Source of the DNA: Promethearchaeota archaeon
Lineage (GTDB): Archaea > Asgardarchaeota > Lokiarchaeia > Sigynarchaeales > SOKP01
Assembly (NCBI GenBank): GCA_016839655.1
Contig: JAEOTW010000263.1
Coordinates: 1-13,849, forward strand
Direction of reading: 5' to 3'
DNA length: 13,849 bases
The position numbers and the translations under genes were made by a program. The notes beneath the pieces were generated by a model, which searched no databases, was not told where the DNA came from, and saw only the letters and a list, made by a program, of their open reading frames with translations. Positions 1,565 to 9,094 of this stretch are shown here, piece after piece. Positions within the stretch are counted from its first letter, which is position 1; the number at the start of each line of letters is the position of its first letter.

Positions 1565-2698
1565 ATGGATGTTAATAAATTATTAACACAAATAAATTCA
1601 TGTATAGACTGTAAAGATTGTATGGAAGTATGTGATACTTACATGGTTACTTCCGATGAGCTAAAATCCCCTAATGGAAGATTAAGAATAGCTGAAAAAG
1701 TTTTTTCCGATAAAGAAATTACTGAAAATGAAGTTACCGGGCTCTACACTTGTACTTTATGTGGATTATGTGATTTAACCTGTCAACAAAATATTGAAAT
1801 ATCAGAAATTATTCATTCTTCAAAAATTAACCTTGTAGAAAAAGAACAAGGACCTTTAGAAATACATCATAAAATAATAAACGGAATTATTAAAAAAGAC
1901 AACTCTGTTGGGGGAAACCCGGATGAGAGATTAAATTGGTTGCCCGAAAAATATAAACAAAAAGAAGAATTTGAAAAGAAAGATTCAGATACTTTATTAT
2001 TTTTAGGATGTATGTCATCATTTCGAGTAACAGAAAGTGCGCTTGCTCCTTACGAAATTTTAAAACTTGCTGGTTTTGATTTTAAAATTTTGAAAGAAGA
2101 GCCTTGTTGCGGAGAATATGTATATTCTGCAGGGGATCTTAAACTTGCTAAGAAAATTTTTAGTGAGAATATTGAAATTTTTAAAAAAATAGGTGTAAAA
2201 ACTCTAATTGTTACATGTGGAGGCTGTTTATATGCGTTTGATAAAGTATATAGGAAATATTTTGGAGATTTCAATCTAAATGTCAGACATATAATTGAGG
2301 TTATTTATGAGTTAGAAAAAAATAATAAAATCAACTTAAAACCATTAAACAAATCAATTACTTATCATGATCCCTGCCGAGTGGGAAGAAAATACAAAAA
2401 TGGTCCTCTTTATTCTGAACCTCGAGAGCTATTAAAAAAATGTGGTTTAGATATAAAAGATTTAACTGTTAACCCTGAAGAAACGCCTTGTTGTGGTGCC
2501 GGTTCTGGAATCAGAGGAGTGGATAGTAGTATTTGTATAAAAATTGGTAAACAATTATTTAATAGTATAAGCACTAAAGATATTGCCAGTTCTTGTCCTT
2601 TATGTGTATTTAATTTTAGATATGTGAATTATAAGAATCAAATGGATAAAGAGAGTAAATATATAACTGGTTATATTTTAGAATCAATGAAAAAATAA
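1565..2698 (+). CDS. HdrD/GlpC-like iron-sulfur oxidoreductase (two [4Fe-4S] ferredoxin motifs, two CCG domains)
   Basis: A 377-residue soluble protein, close to the usual HdrD size. Two classical CxxCxxCxxxC [4Fe-4S] motifs lie at Cys13/16/19/23 and Cys63/66/69/73. Two complete CCG domains follow: Cys149, Cys181-Cys182, Cys218/Cys221 and Cys271, Cys309-Cys310, Cys344/Cys347. In HdrB/HdrD such CCG domains bind non-cubane [4Fe-4S] clusters that reduce disulfides; in GlpC and LutA-like proteins they serve dehydrogenase electron transfer. There is no membrane segment, and no hdrE, flavin subunit or dehydrogenase lies next to it, so the partner and substrate cannot be named. The ATG is the first possible start and lies about 40 bases after the predicted transcription start. 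The gene ends eight bases before the stop of the convergent iscU. It may work with the divergently encoded disulfide/persulfide reductase, but that is inference. Confidence 0.88.
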   Translation: MDVNKLLTQINSCIDCKDCMEVCDTYMVTSDELKSPNGRLRIAEKVFSDKEITENEVTGLYTCTLCGLCDLTCQQNIEISEIIHSSKINLVEKEQGPLEIHHKIINGIIKKDNSVGGNPDERLNWLPEKYKQKEEFEKKDSDTLLFLGCMSSFRVTESALAPYEILKLAGFDFKILKEEPCCGEYVYSAGDLKLAKKIFSENIEIFKKIGVKTLIVTCGGCLYAFDKVYRKYFGDFNLNVRHIIEVIYELEKNNKINLKPLNKSITYHDPCRVGRKYKNGPLYSEPRELLKKCGLDIKDLTVNPEETPCCGAGSGIRGVDSSICIKIGKQLFNSISTKDIASSCPLCVFNFRYVNYKNQMDKESKYITGYILESMKK

Positions 2699-2705: not shown

Positions 2706-3506
2706 TTAACCTCTATAATCTAAAATTATAATTGCATCCACAAAAAGTTCGTAATTTTCATCTTCATCGAAATCATGTATAATTACTTTTTCTACTTCGT
2801 CTAATTCTCCTTTGATTTCATTCAATTCTGATTGATGTAATATTTTTACGTCAGATTGCTTTAATTTTTTTGCCAGTTCTACAGTACCTGGAATCTCTTT
2901 TGCAGAAGTCACTAGTATTACTCTGCCTGTATATTCTGTTAATTTCAGAGCTAAATCTAACGATTCATCACCAGTATCGACAATCAATGTTCTCTTCTCT
3001 CTTAATTCCTCAAGATCAGGAACCTCCAGATATACTCCTTTTCCCTTAAAATCGTCAACCCCTAAAATTACTCGTACATCTAACTGACATGAAGTAACTA
3101 CCTCTACTTCTGGTTTTGTGCCCTCCCGGTAATTATTAATTGCAGCTTTTAAAGCATCTGCGGCTAGATTTGAACAATGCATTTTGATAGGAGGTAAACC
3201 ATCTAATTCCTCTGCAACATCACTTCGAGTAATATCATATGCATCATCCAGTGTCATTCCCTTTGCCATTTCAGTTACCATGGATGAGGTCGATACTGCA
3301 GATCCACATCCAAAAGTTTTGAATTTAATATCATCAATAACTTCTTCTCCTTTATCATTTTTCCCTACTTTAATGAAAATTTCCATTAAATCTCCACATA
3401 CGGGGTTTCCAACTTTTCCATATCCATCAGGATTCTCAATTGATCCTACATTTCGTGGATTGCGAAAATGGTCCATAACTTTATCGGTATATTTATGTAC
3501 ACTCAT
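2706..3506 (-). CDS. iscU: IscU Fe-S cluster scaffold fused to a degenerate thioredoxin-reductase-like domain
   Basis: A 266-residue protein; typical IscU is about 130-150. Residues 1-130 are a complete IscU: NPVCGD (Cys37, Asp39), FGCGSA (Cys67) and KMHCS (His110, Cys111) supply the cluster ligands and the conserved Asp, so scaffold activity should be intact. An extra Cys140 sits in a linker. Residues about 150-266 read collinearly with the NADPH domain of thioredoxin reductase: GKGVYLEVPD where TrxR has GVSYCATCDG, LIVDTGDESLDLALKLT where it has VVGGGD(S/T)A..EAL.LT, then V-I-L-V, SELNEIKG and FVDAIIIL where it has VDGVFVAIG. The CxxC and the glycine-rich motif are lost, so the domain cannot be a working reductase and may bind a partner. 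This domain call is by eye. The start ATG directly abuts the iscS stop and has a perfect AGGAGG at 3515-3520. It is the third gene of the tusA-iscS-iscU operon. Confidence 0.9.
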   Translation of the reverse strand: MSVHKYTDKVMDHFRNPRNVGSIENPDGYGKVGNPVCGDLMEIFIKVGKNDKGEEVIDDIKFKTFGCGSAVSTSSMVTEMAKGMTLDDAYDITRSDVAEELDGLPPIKMHCSNLAADALKAAINNYREGTKPEVEVVTSCQLDVRVILGVDDFKGKGVYLEVPDLEELREKRTLIVDTGDESLDLALKLTEYTGRVILVTSAKEIPGTVELAKKLKQSDVKILHQSELNEIKGELDEVEKVIIHDFDEDENYELFVDAIIILDYRG

Positions 3507-4697
3507 TTAATTTTCCTCCTTTTGTAATTTTTTTAATAAATCTGGAGGTGTAAGTGGTGATAAAATTCTTAATCTTCTTACTACTCCAGGTAAAACTTCA
3601 ATAATTCTATTAATATCATTTTCTGTAGTAAATCTTCCTAATGTTAATAATAAACTCCCATGTGCTTCTTCATGTAAAAGACCACATGAGATAAGCGTAT
3701 GGGATGGTTCTAAAGTCTTTGAAGAACAGGCAGAACCTGTTGCTACTTCCACTTTTTCATCTTTTAAAGATAGAAGTAAAGATTCACCTTCAATATAATC
3801 AAACCTGAAATTAGCATTATTTGGTGTTCTTTTATCAGGATGACCATTTAAATAAGATTTAGGTATCTTTAATACTTCAGTAATTAATTTATCCCGCAAA
3901 ATTTTTAACCTAGTAGCTTCTTCATTTATTTCTGCTTTCATTATTTCAGCTGCTTTTGCAAATCCTATTATTCCGGGCATATTTTCAGATCCAGATCTCA
4001 TCCCTTTCTCCTGACCTCCTCCAATTAGAACAGGATTTACTCTTATTCCTTTCTTAAGATATAAAGCACCCACTCCTCTTGGACCATAAATATCATTAGA
4101 TGATAGAGTCAATAAATCAAATGGAACCTTTTGCACATCTATAGGAATAGCACTTTCACTTGCTACCGCATCAGAATGAAACCAAATGTTTTTTTTTTGT
4201 ACAATTTCTACAATTTCTTCTACAGGTTGAATTGAACCTATTTCATTACTAGCGGTAGAAATTGAGATCAAGATAGTTTCATCATTAATTAGTCGTTCTA
4301 ATTTTCCAAGGTTAATGACACCAAATCTATCAACAGGAACTCTACTCACTCTAAATCCTTGTCTCTCTAAATATTTCCCTATATTTAAAATGGAAATATG
4401 TTCAATTTCTGAAATAATGATATGATTTCCTTTTCTCTTATTCCGAAGAACCCCGCCAATTATTCCTAGATTATTTGATTCGGTAGCCCCAGAAGTAAAA
4501 ATGATATTTTCTGGACTTGGAGCATTGATGAACTCAGCAATTTTATTACGAGCTTCTTCTAAAGAATTAGTAGCATTATATCCAAAATTATGTAATGATG
4601 ATGGATTTCCAAATTTGGTAGTGAAGTATGGTTTCATAACCTCAAATACTCGAGGATCCACTGGTTTTGCTGCTTGGTAATCTAAATATACGCTCAT
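3507..4697 (-). CDS. iscS: IscS-family protein lacking the PLP lysine (Archaeoglobus-type, probably desulfurase-dead)
   Basis: A 396-residue class V aminotransferase-fold protein, full length for IscS/NifS. Conserved elements are YLDYQAA (4-10), SGATESNN (69-76), His100 in IEH, NEIG (151-154), Asp176 of HSDA (pyridine-nitrogen contact), RSGSENM, the sulfur-accepting Cys324 in GSACSS, and AHGSLLLTLGRFTTEND. The Schiff-base motif SSHK is replaced by SSND: Asn201 (4095-4097) and Asp202 (4092-4094) stand for His-Lys. The PLP-contacting Gln of DATQ is also changed (DAVA, Ala179). Known family fact: A. fulgidus IscS likewise has Asp at this position, lacks desulfurase activity, and can instead lend its Cys as a cluster ligand in the IscS-IscU complex. 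The same role is inferred here: a structural partner for IscU, not a sulfur donor from cysteine. It starts 16 bases after tusA and ends flush against iscU. Confidence 0.93.
   Translation of the reverse strand: MSVYLDYQAAKPVDPRVFEVMKPYFTTKFGNPSSLHNFGYNATNSLEEARNKIAEFINAPSPENIIFTSGATESNNLGIIGGVLRNKRKGNHIIISEIEHISILNIGKYLERQGFRVSRVPVDRFGVINLGKLERLINDETILISISTASNEIGSIQPVEEIVEIVQKKNIWFHSDAVASESAIPIDVQKVPFDLLTLSSNDIYGPRGVGALYLKKGIRVNPVLIGGGQEKGMRSGSENMPGIIGFAKAAEIMKAEINEEATRLKILRDKLITEVLKIPKSYLNGHPDKRTPNNANFRFDYIEGESLLLSLKDEKVEVATGSACSSKTLEPSHTLISCGLLHEEAHGSLLLTLGRFTTENDINRIIEVLPGVVRRLRILSPLTPPDLLKKLQKEEN
3515..3520 (-). promoter_or_regulatory. Ribosome binding site of iscU inside the iscS 3' end
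   Basis: AGGAGG on the minus strand, eight bases before the iscU ATG, lies within the last sense codons of iscS. It fixes the iscU start and indicates that the two genes are translated from one message. Confidence 0.75.
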
Positions 4698-4713: not shown

Positions 4714-4968
4714 TTATTTCATTTTCTTAAAGACAAAAATTAAATCTTCGCCATCTTTATTAAATTCTACGACTTTTGTATCGGTTCTTTTAGCCCATCT
4801 TTTAAGATCTTCTTCTGCTGCGGGATCATCTGCAAGAACTTTAAAACACTGCCCTACATTTAAAGTTTCACTTAAATTTCTAACTTCGAATAGAGGTTCT
4901 GGACAATATAATCCGCGGGTATCTAATTCACTTTCAATTTTTAATTCATCACTTTGTTCTTCATTCAC
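4714..4968 (-). CDS. tusA: TusA/SirA-family sulfur carrier
   Basis: An 84-residue protein with the TusA hallmark LDTRGLYCPEPLFEVR: Cys22 in the CPxP motif is the residue that carries the persulfide. The rest fits the small two-layer alpha/beta fold (VGQCFKVLADDPAAEEDLKRW, ending in DLIFVFKK). TusA proteins pass sulfane sulfur between desulfurases, rhodaneses and acceptors in the cytoplasm. The start is GTG, fixed by an AAGGAGGT box at 4983-4976 with seven bases spacing; an overlapping ATG at 4964 is out of frame. It is the first gene of the tusA-iscS-iscU operon. Because the IscS here has lost its PLP lysine, TusA is a candidate to bring sulfur to IscU, which is inference. Assignment to a TusA subgroup is not possible by eye. 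Confidence 0.92.
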   Translation of the reverse strand: MNEEQSDELKIESELDTRGLYCPEPLFEVRNLSETLNVGQCFKVLADDPAAEEDLKRWAKRTDTKVVEFNKDGEDLIFVFKKMK

Positions 4969-5191: not shown

Positions 5192-5827
5192 TCATTCAAT
5201 TCCTGCAAGCTTTTTAATATGTTTTACTCCATCTACTGCGTCATCAGCAAAATCATCTGCTCCTAGTTTTTTTGCAAGCTCCATATTTAATGGGGCACCT
5301 CCAACAATTAATTTGACTTTATCACGAATTCCTGCCGCTAGTAAAGCTTCATGAACAACTTTTATATGTTCTACAGTCATAGTTAATAAAGTGCTTAGTG
5401 CGATTATTGTAGCTCCTGTTTCTTTTACTTTTTCTACGACTTTATTTTCATCAACATCCATGCCTAAATCATAGAGATCAAAACCAGAACTTAAAAGAAG
5501 AGAGCCTAATATATTTTTTCCAATATCATGGTTGTCTCCTTTAACAGTAGCTAGAATTATTCCTACTTTATCCTCCGATTTACCTGAAGCAGCTAAAACA
5601 GGTTTCAAAATATTAAAAGCTTCCTTCATTGTTTCTCCAGCTAAAACAAGCTCGGTTAAATAATATTCTTTTTCTTCATAACGACGTCCAACTTCATCCA
5701 TCCCTTTTGTTAATGAATTTAAAACATCAAATGCATCCTTTCCTTCATCTAATGCTTCTTTGATCGCATCAGCAATATCATCTACTTCTAATTCAACTAC
5801 TAATTCAGTTAATTTTTCGAAATCCAC
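5192..5827 (-). CDS. Methyltransferase corrinoid (B12-binding) protein, MtbC/MtmC/MtaC type
   Basis: A 211-residue protein with the standard two-domain plan. Residues 1-85 are the helical B12-binding cap (MDEVGRRYEEKEYYLTELVLAGETM). Residues 87-211 are the Rossmann-like corrinoid domain: GDNHDIGKN gives DxHxxG, with His100 as the lower axial cobalt ligand; S145-T-L147 is the SxL motif; G176-G177 the GG motif. The family shuttles methyl groups between a substrate-specific methyltransferase and a CoM- or pterin-dependent one in the cytoplasm. No methyltransferase or reactivase lies next to it, so the methyl donor cannot be named. Start: GTG at 5827 with AAAGGAGA (5840-5833) five bases upstream; no other in-frame start is near. 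It appears to be a single-gene unit with its own terminator and a long upstream region. Confidence 0.93.
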   Translation of the reverse strand: MDFEKLTELVVELEVDDIADAIKEALDEGKDAFDVLNSLTKGMDEVGRRYEEKEYYLTELVLAGETMKEAFNILKPVLAASGKSEDKVGIILATVKGDNHDIGKNILGSLLLSSGFDLYDLGMDVDENKVVEKVKETGATIIALSTLLTMTVEHIKVVHEALLAAGIRDKVKLIVGGAPLNMELAKKLGADDFADDAVDGVKHIKKLAGIE

Positions 5828-6368: not shown

Positions 6369-7163
6369 GTGCCAGAAATAGATAATTCCTTAGATGATAT
6401 TAAGAAAGAGAATTCAGTTAAAGGGGATAAACTTATCTCAAAAACCGAATTTTTGAAGGATATTAGTTCTAAATTTGCGATATTTTGTGAAGACCTATTT
6501 AAAGATTATGAAATTGGAGATTTCATTGTTCGAGCTGTTGATAATGTTTCTTTATCAATTAATAATGGGGAATTTTTAGTCATTAAAGGTCCTAGTGGTG
6601 CAGGAAAGACGACATTCTTAAATTTAATAGGAGGATTGGATTCACCTAATCGGGGAATATTATATTCTTATGGTGTAAAAATTTCAGATATGGAAGAAGA
6701 ATCATTAACAATCTGGAGGCTTTTGAATACAGGATTTGTTTTTCAAAATTATAACCTTATTAGTACCCTCACTGCTGAGGAAAATGTTATGTTTCCAATG
6801 AATCTTTCAGGAGTAGCTTTTAAGGAACAGAGAAAACGCGCAGAAGAATTATTAAGAAAGATGGGCCTTCATGAAAGGAGAGAACACTTACCTTTTCAAC
6901 TTTCTGCTGGAGAACAACAGAGAGTTGCTATAGCTAGAGCGCTAGCAAACAATCCTCCTATGATATTAGCTGATGAACCAACGGCTAATCTAGATAAAAA
7001 AACAAGTCAATTTATTCGAGATCTTTTTAAAGAGTTAAAAGATGATATTAGAACAATCATAATCGCTACACATGATGATTATTTAATAAATTTAGCTGAT
7101 AGAATTCTTTCTTTTGATGATGGTAAAATTATAAATGAAGAAGTACTAAGAAAATTCGAATAG
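6369..7163 (+). CDS. ABC transporter ATP-binding protein, LolD/MacB/FtsE type
   Basis: A 264-residue ATPase with all motifs intact: Walker A GPSGAGKT (74-81), Q-loop Gln126 in FVFQNYNL, signature LSAGEQQR (178-185, Ala instead of the common second Gly), Walker B MILADEPT (198-205) with catalytic Glu203, D-loop ANLD and H-loop His235. The first 35 residues, polar and charged, form an extension ahead of the ABC domain. The start is GTG: the frame opens after a TAA at 6336-6338 and holds no ATG before residue 108. No ribosome binding site is seen, and the TATA-like element fits a leaderless transcript. The permease gene follows 14 bases downstream, so the two form one export or mechanotransmission complex at the cytoplasmic membrane. 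MacB, LolCDE and FtsEX relatives move lipids, peptides or signals; the substrate is unknown. Confidence 0.92.
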   Translation: MPEIDNSLDDIKKENSVKGDKLISKTEFLKDISSKFAIFCEDLFKDYEIGDFIVRAVDNVSLSINNGEFLVIKGPSGAGKTTFLNLIGGLDSPNRGILYSYGVKISDMEEESLTIWRLLNTGFVFQNYNLISTLTAEENVMFPMNLSGVAFKEQRKRAEELLRKMGLHERREHLPFQLSAGEQQRVAIARALANNPPMILADEPTANLDKKTSQFIRDLFKELKDDIRTIIIATHDDYLINLADRILSFDDGKIINEEVLRKFE

Positions 7164-7177
7164 AAATTATAGAAAAG

Positions 7178-9094
7178 ATGTCCTCATTAGATTTTGCGCT
7201 GAAAGACTTATATCGGAAAAAAAAGTCTAATTATCCATTTTTAGTTATCATAATTTTAATAGTCACAATTACAGAATTCTTGATTTATTTTACTTCATCA
7301 CTAGGTTTAAATATTTTTATTCAACCTTCGTTTCTTAATATGTATTATTTTACAAGCGGAATTAGTCTAACTTATAAACAGTTTAATACATTAATTCAGA
7401 TCTTATTGATAGTATTAACCATTGGTATAGTGGTTGGTGTAAGTACTACTTTAATTATTACCAAAAAAAAAGATATCGCTATAATGAAATCCTTAGGCAC
7501 TCTCCCTAGAAAATTATATAGTTTTTATTTACTTGAAGTGTATATTTTGTTTTTTATTGGTTTTATATTAGGTCTAATTTTAGGACTGGTAATATTTGGA
7601 ATATTTGCTTTAATTATGCTTTTTTTCAATTTTCCAATTATATTTCAATTTGATTTCTTCTATACTTCAATTATTTTTTTCTTTTGTATAATTGGTATTT
7701 TTTTTGTGAGTGGTTATGCAATAAGGAAAATAGGGAAACAAAAAATAATCCAAACTTTCTCTAAAGATATCCCTTACAACTACAATGCAGGAAAACCTTT
7801 AAAACTTATTCCTAAATGGTTAACTGCATTTGGATTTAATATTAAAATTGCTGTTGTTAACACCTTAAGAAAAAAAGGTGAATTTAAGAGATATTTAATT
7901 CTTTTTTCTATTATTGGAATGTTGATATTTACACTAGGGATAGGAACAATTGTAATCAATTTTTCCTCTCGGGAGTGGATAAATAAATCACAAAGTGAAA
8001 ATATTGTGATTATAGGACATGAAGATGTTGTGTATAACTATTCCTTAATGTATAGCATGTTTTCTGATCCCTTTCTTTTAGTTGATGAGGAAAATATTAA
8101 TTTTACAGATTCACAATACTTCTTTAACTTGAGTGAAGTACAAATCTTAGATAACGTTATCGAAATTGAAAAAATTGATGAAAGAATTATAAGTTTTTAT
8201 GATGTAGAGGAACTTACTGGAACCTATATTGATGAAGATGGCAATTATATAACAGTAGGTCAAGTACCAGGTCGAGAAGGTAATATTCCAATAATTGGAG
8301 TGAACCCTGAAAATATTATTCAAAATTTTGAAATTGAGGGTAGATTTTTTACTGAAGAAGACGCTTTTGAAAATATGACTATTGCTGATGGATTGGCTCA
8401 TAATATTTTTGATTTTCCATTACTTCAAAGATTAGAACTTACTGGGCTTGGTAAAGTATTCCATATAGCGGGAATTGTTATCGATAGTTTTTATTCTGGG
8501 TGGAGTGGGTATATAAGTATTAATGAATCAAGGAATTTATTAAACCTTATCAATGATGAGGTTAATTTAATTATGTTAAAGCTAAGTCCTGGAACGTACG
8601 ATGGAATTAGTGAAACGCTTGAAAATGTGACTAACACTCTTGGAGAAAAATTTACCCATTTGAGATTAGATCAAGTATTCCAAGCAAATATAAATTTTGT
8701 GAGCTTTTTATCAATATATCCAATAATATTAATAATGGTAATATCTACTATAGCAATTTTATCATTGTATAATTATCAAAAATCAGGAATTTTAGAGAAA
8801 GCTCAAGATTTTCTTATTATGCGAGCTATTGGTTCAAAAACTAGATCACTGAAAAAAATACTTTTTATGGAATCAATTTTTGTCATATTTCCTTCTTTAT
8901 TATTAAGTCTAGCAATTGGAATGATTGTAAATTCATTATTTCTATTTAAGCAAGTCTATTTACCTCCCTTATACATACCATTTATTTTTTTTGTAGTTTT
9001 ATTTTTGATTTTTATGATTTTTAATTTCTTAAGTCTTATTCCAATAATCAAGAAAATCAATAAATTTTCTATAAAGGATTTTAGTCTGTACTAA
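7178..9094 (+). CDS. FtsX/MacB-type ABC transporter permease
   Basis: A 638-residue membrane protein with about eight predicted membrane helices: near residues 20-40, 71-95, 120-150, 160-180, 238-262, 508-532, 566-590 and 598-622. Two FtsX-type domains are visible, each with the family's cytoplasmic coupling motif: KKKDIAIMKSLGTLPRKLY (97-115) and AQDFLIMRAIGSKTRSLKK (542-560). Between them, residues 263-507 form one large extracytoplasmic domain resembling the MacB periplasmic core (IEGRFFTEED, MTIADGLAHNIF, FHIAGIVIDS). The ATPase is the separate gene just upstream, so this is a split MacB/LolCE-like system, presumably working as a permease homodimer. In an organism without an outer membrane, the extracytoplasmic domain would face the outside. 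ATG at 7178 lies 14 bases after the ATPase stop with only a weak purine-rich stretch before it. Confidence 0.9.
   Translation: MSSLDFALKDLYRKKKSNYPFLVIIILIVTITEFLIYFTSSLGLNIFIQPSFLNMYYFTSGISLTYKQFNTLIQILLIVLTIGIVVGVSTTLIITKKKDIAIMKSLGTLPRKLYSFYLLEVYILFFIGFILGLILGLVIFGIFALIMLFFNFPIIFQFDFFYTSIIFFFCIIGIFFVSGYAIRKIGKQKIIQTFSKDIPYNYNAGKPLKLIPKWLTAFGFNIKIAVVNTLRKKGEFKRYLILFSIIGMLIFTLGIGTIVINFSSREWINKSQSENIVIIGHEDVVYNYSLMYSMFSDPFLLVDEENINFTDSQYFFNLSEVQILDNVIEIEKIDERIISFYDVEELTGTYIDEDGNYITVGQVPGREGNIPIIGVNPENIIQNFEIEGRFFTEEDAFENMTIADGLAHNIFDFPLLQRLELTGLGKVFHIAGIVIDSFYSGWSGYISINESRNLLNLINDEVNLIMLKLSPGTYDGISETLENVTNTLGEKFTHLRLDQVFQANINFVSFLSIYPIILIMVISTIAILSLYNYQKSGILEKAQDFLIMRAIGSKTRSLKKILFMESIFVIFPSLLLSLAIGMIVNSLFLFKQVYLPPLYIPFIFFVVLFLIFMIFNFLSLIPIIKKINKFSIKDFSLY

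Follow-up and report, generated by a model that had tools for sequence, protein, structure and literature searches.

The window (the whole 13,849-nucleotide stretch of promethearchaeal DNA that was analysed) carries on its reverse strand three genes for sulfur and iron-sulfur cluster proteins. The TusA-type sulfur carrier (4714..4968; PF01206, E 7.2e-19), which retains the cysteine of the CPxP motif (YCPEP), is encoded directly upstream of iscS (3507..4697), the product of which matches PF00266, scores below the IscS and NifS cut-offs, and lacks the pyridoxal phosphate (PLP)-binding lysine. The iscU gene (2706-3506, reverse strand) is a single uninterrupted frame of 266 codons, encoding a protein of 266 amino acids. 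A convergently transcribed neighbor (1565..2698, forward strand) codes for a Fer4/CCG iron-sulfur protein that, judging from its family matches, resembles TfrB. The flanking genes include one for a methyltransferase corrinoid protein upstream of tusA (5192-5827, reverse strand), whose best NCBIfam matches, pyl_corrinoid and MtbC, are both below the cut-off, and those for an ABC transporter ATPase and then a 638-aa protein resembling a permease of such a transporter (6369-9094, forward strand); an open reading frame (ORF) similar to the latter was found in 19 related loci in addition to the window.

The N-terminal part of the iscU product is a complete scaffold domain of the IscU/NifU_N family (residues 5-129; 3120..3494, reverse strand), as had been stated in the initial annotation, with a match to PF01592 at E 7.8e-46 and a TIGR03419 score above the cut-off of that model. 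The cluster ligands Cys37, Asp39, Cys67, and Cys111, as well as the LPPIK motif, are invariant across 53 sequences, so that all the hallmarks of such scaffolds (three cluster cysteines, Asp39, and LPPxK) are found in the window protein. In one related locus (L135:4822-6402, forward strand), iscU contains an intein with Intein_splicing and LAGLIDADG domains (Pfam matches), inserted at the first cluster cysteine; this gene adjoins that for a Lys-less IscS. The scaffold domain is followed by a linker with little conservation between the two matched domains (residues 130-142; 3081..3119, reverse strand) and by a C-terminal tail (residues 143-266; 2709..3080, reverse strand), which profile and sequence matches assign to the NAD(P)H-binding domains of the thioredoxin reductase (TrxR)/ferredoxin-NADP reductase (FNR) family, in a version without the cofactor motifs.

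This assignment, proposed initially from the order of the motifs of the central TrxR domain, was confirmed by the sequence comparisons. The tail alone (2706-3080) scores 24.5 bits against the Pfam model Pyr_redox (PF00070; gathering score 22, E 4e-5), and the NCBIfam model TRX_reduct matches residues 148-261 of the whole protein at 1.1e-10, a score below the whole-protein cut-off of the model, as is to be expected of a tail that represents only part of it. In a single-sequence phmmer search, the tail matched PDB entry 2zbw, which bears the name thioredoxin reductase, with an E of 1e-8. With a profile built from 18 tails, i.e., the kind of search that had been suggested as a check, the same entry came up at 8e-15, followed mostly by TrxR, FNR, or AhpF chains (60 of the 82 PDB matches listed bear one of these three names), with no unrelated family on top. 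In an hhalign comparison, 34 tails matched the NAD domains of 24 Asgard TrxRs with a probability of 99.8%. The possibility of a chance match was therefore rejected, as the TrxR/FNR scores far exceed those expected by chance, and so was an unrelated Rossmann domain, since the best matches are to TrxR and FNR. By descent, the tail belongs to the TrxR/FNR family as a homologous NAD(P)H domain; of the features of the enzymes themselves (the FAD domain, GxGxxA/S, HRR, and CxxC), none is present in the window tail. The domain was found where it had been placed (2709..3060), but the matched region extends further, to approximately position 3080. Proteins consisting of the tail alone are annotated as NAD-binding proteins in Asgard metagenome-assembled genomes (P0123-P0135 and others); many of the 18 such proteins that were read start in or near the linker, so they are probably split genes or effects of gene calling rather than stand-alone tails. 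In another protein (P0178), encoded on a contig of 925 bases, the tail is joined to the start of a different NAD/FAD-dependent dehydrogenase, which is probably an assembly chimera.

The combination of IscU with the tail is found in many Promethearchaeota and also, although rarely, in members of several bacterial phyla. When the genome collection was scanned with the whole protein, 429 relatives were obtained, and an ORF comprising both IscU and the tail was present in each of the best 80 loci, which were the ones retained. Their hosts, judged by the title or lineage of the record, include several kinds of Promethearchaeota, WOR-3, Stahlbacteria, Aminicenantes, Thermodesulfobacteriota, and Actinomycetota, along with a single contig assigned to Myxococcota. 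When the tail profile was applied to 148 Asgard genomes, drawn from the phylum of the genome G002 (whose contig is titled Thorarchaeota), 65 of them reached the score level of the truncated fusions (E 8.2e-36 or better), and the IscU-plus-tail ORF was seen in all of the best 30 that were inspected. Four further genomes with matches at 1e-28 to 5e-27 turned out to encode full-length reductases, and the remaining matches listed were mostly open frames of the size of an ordinary TrxR. Elsewhere, the tail is rarer. With the threshold set at E 1e-22 and the center genome counted in each case, the tail profile picked up 3 of the 247 genomes from the phylum of G009, 2 of the 296 from that of G154, and 10 of the 120 from that of G003.

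In some relatives, a complete reductase is joined to IscU. Of the four intermediate matches just mentioned, three (L111, L113, and L114) are individual genes with 448 codons each, in which IscU is followed by an entire TrxR/FNR-like flavoprotein; the Pfam matches of the L111 product comprise NifU_N and Pyr_redox_2, the latter over its full length. In the fourth, L112 (1459-2805, forward strand), whose neighbors resemble those in L111, an in-frame stop codon divides the IscU part from the reductase. A search with the L111 protein yielded 6214 matches among 7998 scored candidates; the best 120 of these matches, inspected by eye, combine NifU_N with flavoprotein domains in all cases except P0251-P0253 and P0341. 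The full-length fusions among these 120 are 433-454 aa long and come, where the host is named, from Methanoperedens, other Methanosarcinales, and Jordarchaeaceae; most are annotated as the Fe-S cluster assembly scaffold protein NifU and some as thioredoxin reductase. A scan of viral contigs with the Methanoperedens fusion detected no relative. A protein of 617 aa in L115 (2339-4192, forward strand) appears, by eye, to combine a TrxR-like flavoprotein with a ferredoxin-reductase-like part.

Comparison with these proteins shows a graded loss of the cofactor motifs. The former dinucleotide-binding motif of the window tail reads DTGDES (residues 177-182; 2961..2978, reverse strand) instead of GGGDTA/GGGDSA, the HRR motif is missing from the aligned sequence, and EVPD (residues 161-164; 3015..3026, reverse strand) occupies the CxxC position, in agreement with the initial view that the cofactor motifs had gone. 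A GxGxxA-type motif was found in all 22 full-length fused and all 24 stand-alone TrxR domains but at the corresponding site in none of the 34 truncated tails (two off-site pattern matches in the latter were left out of this count). The HRR motif is retained in 18 of 24 stand-alone Asgard TrxRs, 2 of 22 full-length fusions, and 0 of 34 truncated tails. Among the 18 proteins from this search that were read, one from Methanoperedens (P0273) has kept both GGGDSA and HRRDELR, the Jordarchaeaceae protein P0244 has GNGEQA, and those from Methanocomedens and Methanosarcinaceae (P0350 and P0356) have GxGYNA, with no HRR in the last three. As for CxxC, it is present in 8 of the 24 stand-alone Asgard TrxRs and in none of the fused domains, whether truncated (0/34) or full-length (0/22). 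The cysteines of the window tail are thus missing, as initially noted, but their absence need not signify decay, as it is shared with all 22 full-length fusions and 16 stand-alone proteins. At the site of the old dinucleotide motif, Gly179, Ser182, and Ala186 are near-invariant, and the tail alone still exceeds the Pyr_redox cut-off, both of which could be expected of a sensor with an altered pocket for a dinucleotide or some other nucleotide; with GxGxxA at the motif and HRR missing from every truncated tail, such a function appears quite unlikely.

A tree of the NAD domains was built from 34 truncated and 22 full-length fused domains together with 24 stand-alone Asgard TrxRs (128 columns). 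In this tree, the fused domains form one clade (support 100/98), within which the truncated tails form a nested clade (100/100) surrounded by the full-length fusions, which have no resolved clade of their own; the branch leading to the truncated tails is long (0.99), and only Asgard TrxRs serve as the outgroup. The tail is also under strong purifying selection. In the unsaturated comparisons, its dN/dS ranges from 0.046 to 0.097 (6 of the 20 comparisons were saturated and gave no ratio), with 0.055-0.056 for the two closest loci; the respective range for the IscU part is 0.023-0.073. Given these low values, the tail is not decaying. The notion of a functionless, decaying relic could draw on the lost cofactor motifs and on a dN/dS that, in the comparisons with the two closest loci, is approximately double in the tail relative to the IscU part, but the low ratios overall, the residues that remain invariant across phyla, and the 65 Asgard genomes, of the 148 sampled, that reach the score level of the truncated fusions make it highly improbable. 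The term "decayed" in the initial annotation is accordingly misleading for a domain that is conserved in several phyla and has a single origin within the clade of complete-reductase fusions.

The alignments also show a conserved acidic hairpin in the tail, HDFDEDENYELFVD (residues 244-257; 2736..2777, reverse strand), in which Glu248, Tyr252, Leu254, and Asp257 are invariant. The net charge of the tail has a median of -11 in 53 sequences (range, -24 to 0) and is -14 in the window; in the tree set, the median charge of the domain is -9 for the truncated tails, -4 for the full-length fusions, and -2 for the stand-alone TrxRs. A loose version of the acidic pattern is found at the hairpin in all 34 truncated and all 22 full-length fused domains, but also in 13 of the 24 stand-alone TrxRs, and it was therefore dropped as a signature of the fused domains. 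The tail could, in principle, be an acidic regulator or iron-handling module with a frataxin-like role, with TrxR ancestry being incidental and the hairpin serving to bind Fe(II) or IscS; the charge, which is more negative than in the full-length fused and stand-alone domains, and the four invariant hairpin residues would fit such a role. So would the lack of any frataxin match in the 148 Asgard genomes, which is, however, not telling, as the frataxin control was positive in a single genome of the 14 well-known ones used. The wide spread of the charge, reaching 0, the occurrence of the pattern in stand-alone TrxRs, and the invariant Gly, Arg, and Lys residues elsewhere in the tail, which point to a wider surface than the hairpin, speak against this role and make it unlikely. 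A mere dimerization or solubility domain, which would carry over the dimeric habit of TrxR and bring two IscUs together on one IscS dimer, could be conserved with no cofactor motifs, having no need of a ligand. Enzymes of the TrxR family are indeed dimers, but the dimer contact largely involves the FAD domain, and much of it has gone with that domain, which leaves this role similarly improbable.

In the IscS encoded next to the tail-bearing IscU of the window, Asp202 (4092..4094, reverse strand) takes the place of the PLP-binding lysine (SSND versus SxHK), and Cys324 of the mobile loop (TGSACSS; 3726..3728, reverse strand) has been kept, so the protein has the loop cysteine that carries the persulfide in cysteine desulfurases and not their lysine, a combination that characterizes the IscS of the Archaeoglobus fulgidus type. 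In the best 80 loci, an IscS ORF was in view in 79 cases and the lysine site was readable in 75, with N-D in 72 and N-E in 3. Among 142 loci with IscU plus the tail, the IscS site is Asp in 122 and Glu in 5, is not covered in 3, and could not be assessed in 11, where no IscS is in view; the one other locus (L045) has an adjacent IscS with Asp and, in addition, a paralog with Lys. Some of these 142 loci represent identical genes counted twice; among distinct IscS sequences found with fusions, the site is Asp in 116 and Glu in 5 of the 121 that are readable, with lysine in none, so that the expectation of a Lys-less IscS beside the tail held wherever the site could be read. The mobile-loop cysteine is present in all 124 distinct sequences, and two further positions of the PLP pocket, presumably His205 and Gln183 in E. 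coli numbering, have been changed in all 121. In the 11 Lys-containing IscS proteins used for comparison, Lys, His, and Gln are found at the three positions without exception.

The same association was seen at the level of genomes. The pattern N-[D/E]-I-Y-G-P, searched for in the DNA, was detected in 54 of the 69 fusion genomes of the Asgard draw versus 5 of the 79 others (Fisher p 1.2e-20, with kinship ignored), and in 49 of the 69 no more than 4 kb separates it from the fusion. The pattern is missing from 15 fusion genomes. Thirteen of these were read, and 10 of the 13 encode a Lys-less IscS with NDL, NDF, or NDV instead; the other three have no IscS in view, and neither have the last two of the 15, those of L111 and L113. 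Conversely, in two loci with the pattern and no fusion (L133 and L135), a Lys-less IscS is encoded together with a tail-less IscU, and in a third (L131), with no IscU in view; no IscS was found in L132 and L134, where the pattern matches are therefore probably due to chance. A strict two-way coupling was thus rejected: the tail occurs with Lys-less IscS, but Lys-less IscS, having tail-less partners in L133 and L135, does not need the tail.

Second copies of IscS and IscU were looked for in 10 genomes with fusion loci. For seven of these (G001 and G003-G008; loci L116, L118, and L120-L124), the stretches read encode both a tail-less IscU and a Lys-containing IscS. In G009, a Lys-containing IscS adjoins a classic NifU, and in G010 there is a Lys-containing IscS with no IscU in view. 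The second IscS of G002 (L117:4093-5304, reverse strand), encoded near a tail-less IscU, has Arg in place of the lysine (HR versus HK) and has kept the loop cysteine; owing to this Arg, a normal type I desulfurase is not established for that genome. The genome of NaphS2 carries, in addition to a truncated IscU-tail fusion, a classic NifU (NifU_N, BFD-type [2Fe-2S], and Nfu domains; L125:3264-4094, reverse strand) adjoining a Lys-containing IscS.

In a tree of IscS (50 rows, built with a quick method and leaving out the A. fulgidus sequence), the Lys-less proteins form one clade (support 99), with those of L131, L133, and L135 on the outside, followed by that of L114 (97) and, innermost, the partners of the truncated fusions (98). 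L114 is the only full-length fusion with an IscS in view; there is none in view in L111 and L113. This branching order suggests that the loss of the lysine was followed by the fusion and then by the loss of the FAD part, the middle step being represented by a single sequence (L114). The tree of the IscU domains is weakly resolved, with canonical IscU falling between the full-length and truncated fusions, and was set aside as too weak a guide to the order of events.

Some of the genes in the vicinity offer hints on sulfur, electrons, and iron. A TusA-like ORF is present in 70 of the 80 related loci, and some of the other ten loci end near the gene. A cluster of DsrE-family-like ORFs, one member of which was tested against Pfam, is represented in 41 loci, albeit not beside the genes of the window. 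The TfrB-like Fer4/CCG protein, found in 12 of the 80 loci, could possibly belong to the system as a candidate electron donor. Clusters resembling rubrerythrin, desulfoferrodoxin, or ferritin (four clusters, three of which were assigned through Pfam matches of representatives) occur in 38 of the 80 loci, e.g., at L022:8482-9066 and L062:4020-4412, and are absent from the window; such neighbors hint at a link to oxygen stress or to the handling or storage of iron.

What the sequences establish is the identity of the domain, the occurrence of fusions with a complete reductase, the grouping of the fused domains in one clade, the purifying selection on the tail, and the absence of the lysine from the partner IscS. 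Since the IscU of some relatives is fused to an entire reductase, the tail looks like a conserved remnant of a built-in electron supply. The reading that appears best suited to these data, with a probability of roughly 0.55, is that IscU has retained the NAD(P)H domain of a complete TrxR/FNR-type FAD/NAD(P)H reductase, the FAD half having been lost, and that this remnant serves for docking in a complex whose IscS partner works independently of cysteine. The partner IscS would release no sulfur from cysteine and, by the precedent of A. fulgidus, would act as a docking subunit and provide a cysteine ligand. Sulfur might arrive as sulfide or as persulfide delivered by TusA (and by DsrE where present); the thiols and ligands for such a relay and for cluster binding, namely the CPxP cysteine of TusA, the loop cysteine of IscS, and the Cys/Asp set of IscU, are all in place. 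Elsewhere, electrons are supplied to IscU by ferredoxin and its reductase. The ancestral fused flavoprotein may have had a comparable role, providing electrons for the reduction of sulfane sulfur to sulfide or for the completion of the cluster. In the branch that includes the window, the FAD half, which lies on either side of the inserted NAD domain, would have been lost, and the remaining domain would bind no FAD and, judging from its motifs, probably no NAD(P)H. It has probably been retained as a surface on which an electron donor acting in trans, or IscS, docks.

A broader version of this scheme is a tentative possibility. It posits a widespread cysteine-independent complex, in which the PLP-dead IscS, receiving sulfur from TusA/DsrE or as sulfide, only partners the scaffold and relays persulfide, while IscU once had its own NAD(P)H:flavin reductase replacing ferredoxin and ferredoxin reductase, later pared down in Promethearchaeota and some bacteria to an adaptor that recruits the donor. 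Both types of fusions make the role of Lys-less IscS, and the source of sulfur and electrons for its partner IscU, accessible to experiment: if the scheme is right, clusters should be assembled on the full-length fusions at the expense of NAD(P)H and with no need of cysteine, and a partner should dock on the remnant in the truncated ones. The results would bear on the making of Fe-S clusters in anaerobic archaea, including the relatives of the ancestor of eukaryotes.

Lys-less IscS proteins as such are already known, e.g., in A. fulgidus. Among solved structures, chain A of 4eb5 is nearest to the window IscS (E 1.2e-148); this entry, like 4eb7, represents the A. fulgidus IscS-IscU complex. The SSNDIYGP site, in which Asp replaces the PLP lysine, is identical in the two IscS proteins. 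The IscU chain of 4eb5 has 153 aa, and its match to the window protein stops at the end of the IscU domain, leaving no room for a TrxR-type domain. The A. fulgidus IscS with Asp instead of Lys reportedly has no desulfurase activity and provides a cysteine ligand to a [2Fe-2S] cluster (PMC7585200). The same source, which also reports a deletion of iscSU2 in Methanosarcina acetivorans, describes IscS1 of Methanosarcina acetivorans (MA0808) as devoid of the lysine, like the window protein, and gives the mass of its IscU1 (MA0807) as 24.2 kDa versus 13.9 and 14.0 kDa for the paralogs, from which it follows that IscU1 carries an extension; no remark on the extra mass was found in the text consulted (PMC7585200, section 5). 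The supposition that the architecture had not been described agrees with the literature as far as it was available, in which no description of an IscU with a TrxR-type domain was found (the accessible text of PMC12442378, PMC12192291, PMC6857552, and PMC7585200 included); subscription papers were thinly covered, and an earlier description is possible. The proteins themselves are not new to the databases, where both the truncated and the full-length forms already have records, mostly under the name NifU.

The TrxR-like ferredoxin-NADP reductases (3lzw and 5xhu) and the thioredoxin reductase 2zbw share with the tail a homologous NAD(P)H domain, but they are complete FAD enzymes, whereas the tail has neither the FAD domain nor the nucleotide-binding motifs. 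Another point of comparison is the minimal iron-sulfur (MIS) system, reportedly defined by Garcia et al. Like the window, it has a two-gene pair of an IscS-like and an IscU-like protein, MisS-MisU (PMC12442378 and PMC12192291), which in the window is found together with TusA. Judged by the lysine, however, the window IscS does not qualify as the desulfurase component: the MIS system, as described in these sources, has a cysteine desulfurase, whereas in the window the lysine is missing and the scaffold carries a reductase domain (PMC12442378 and PMC12192291).
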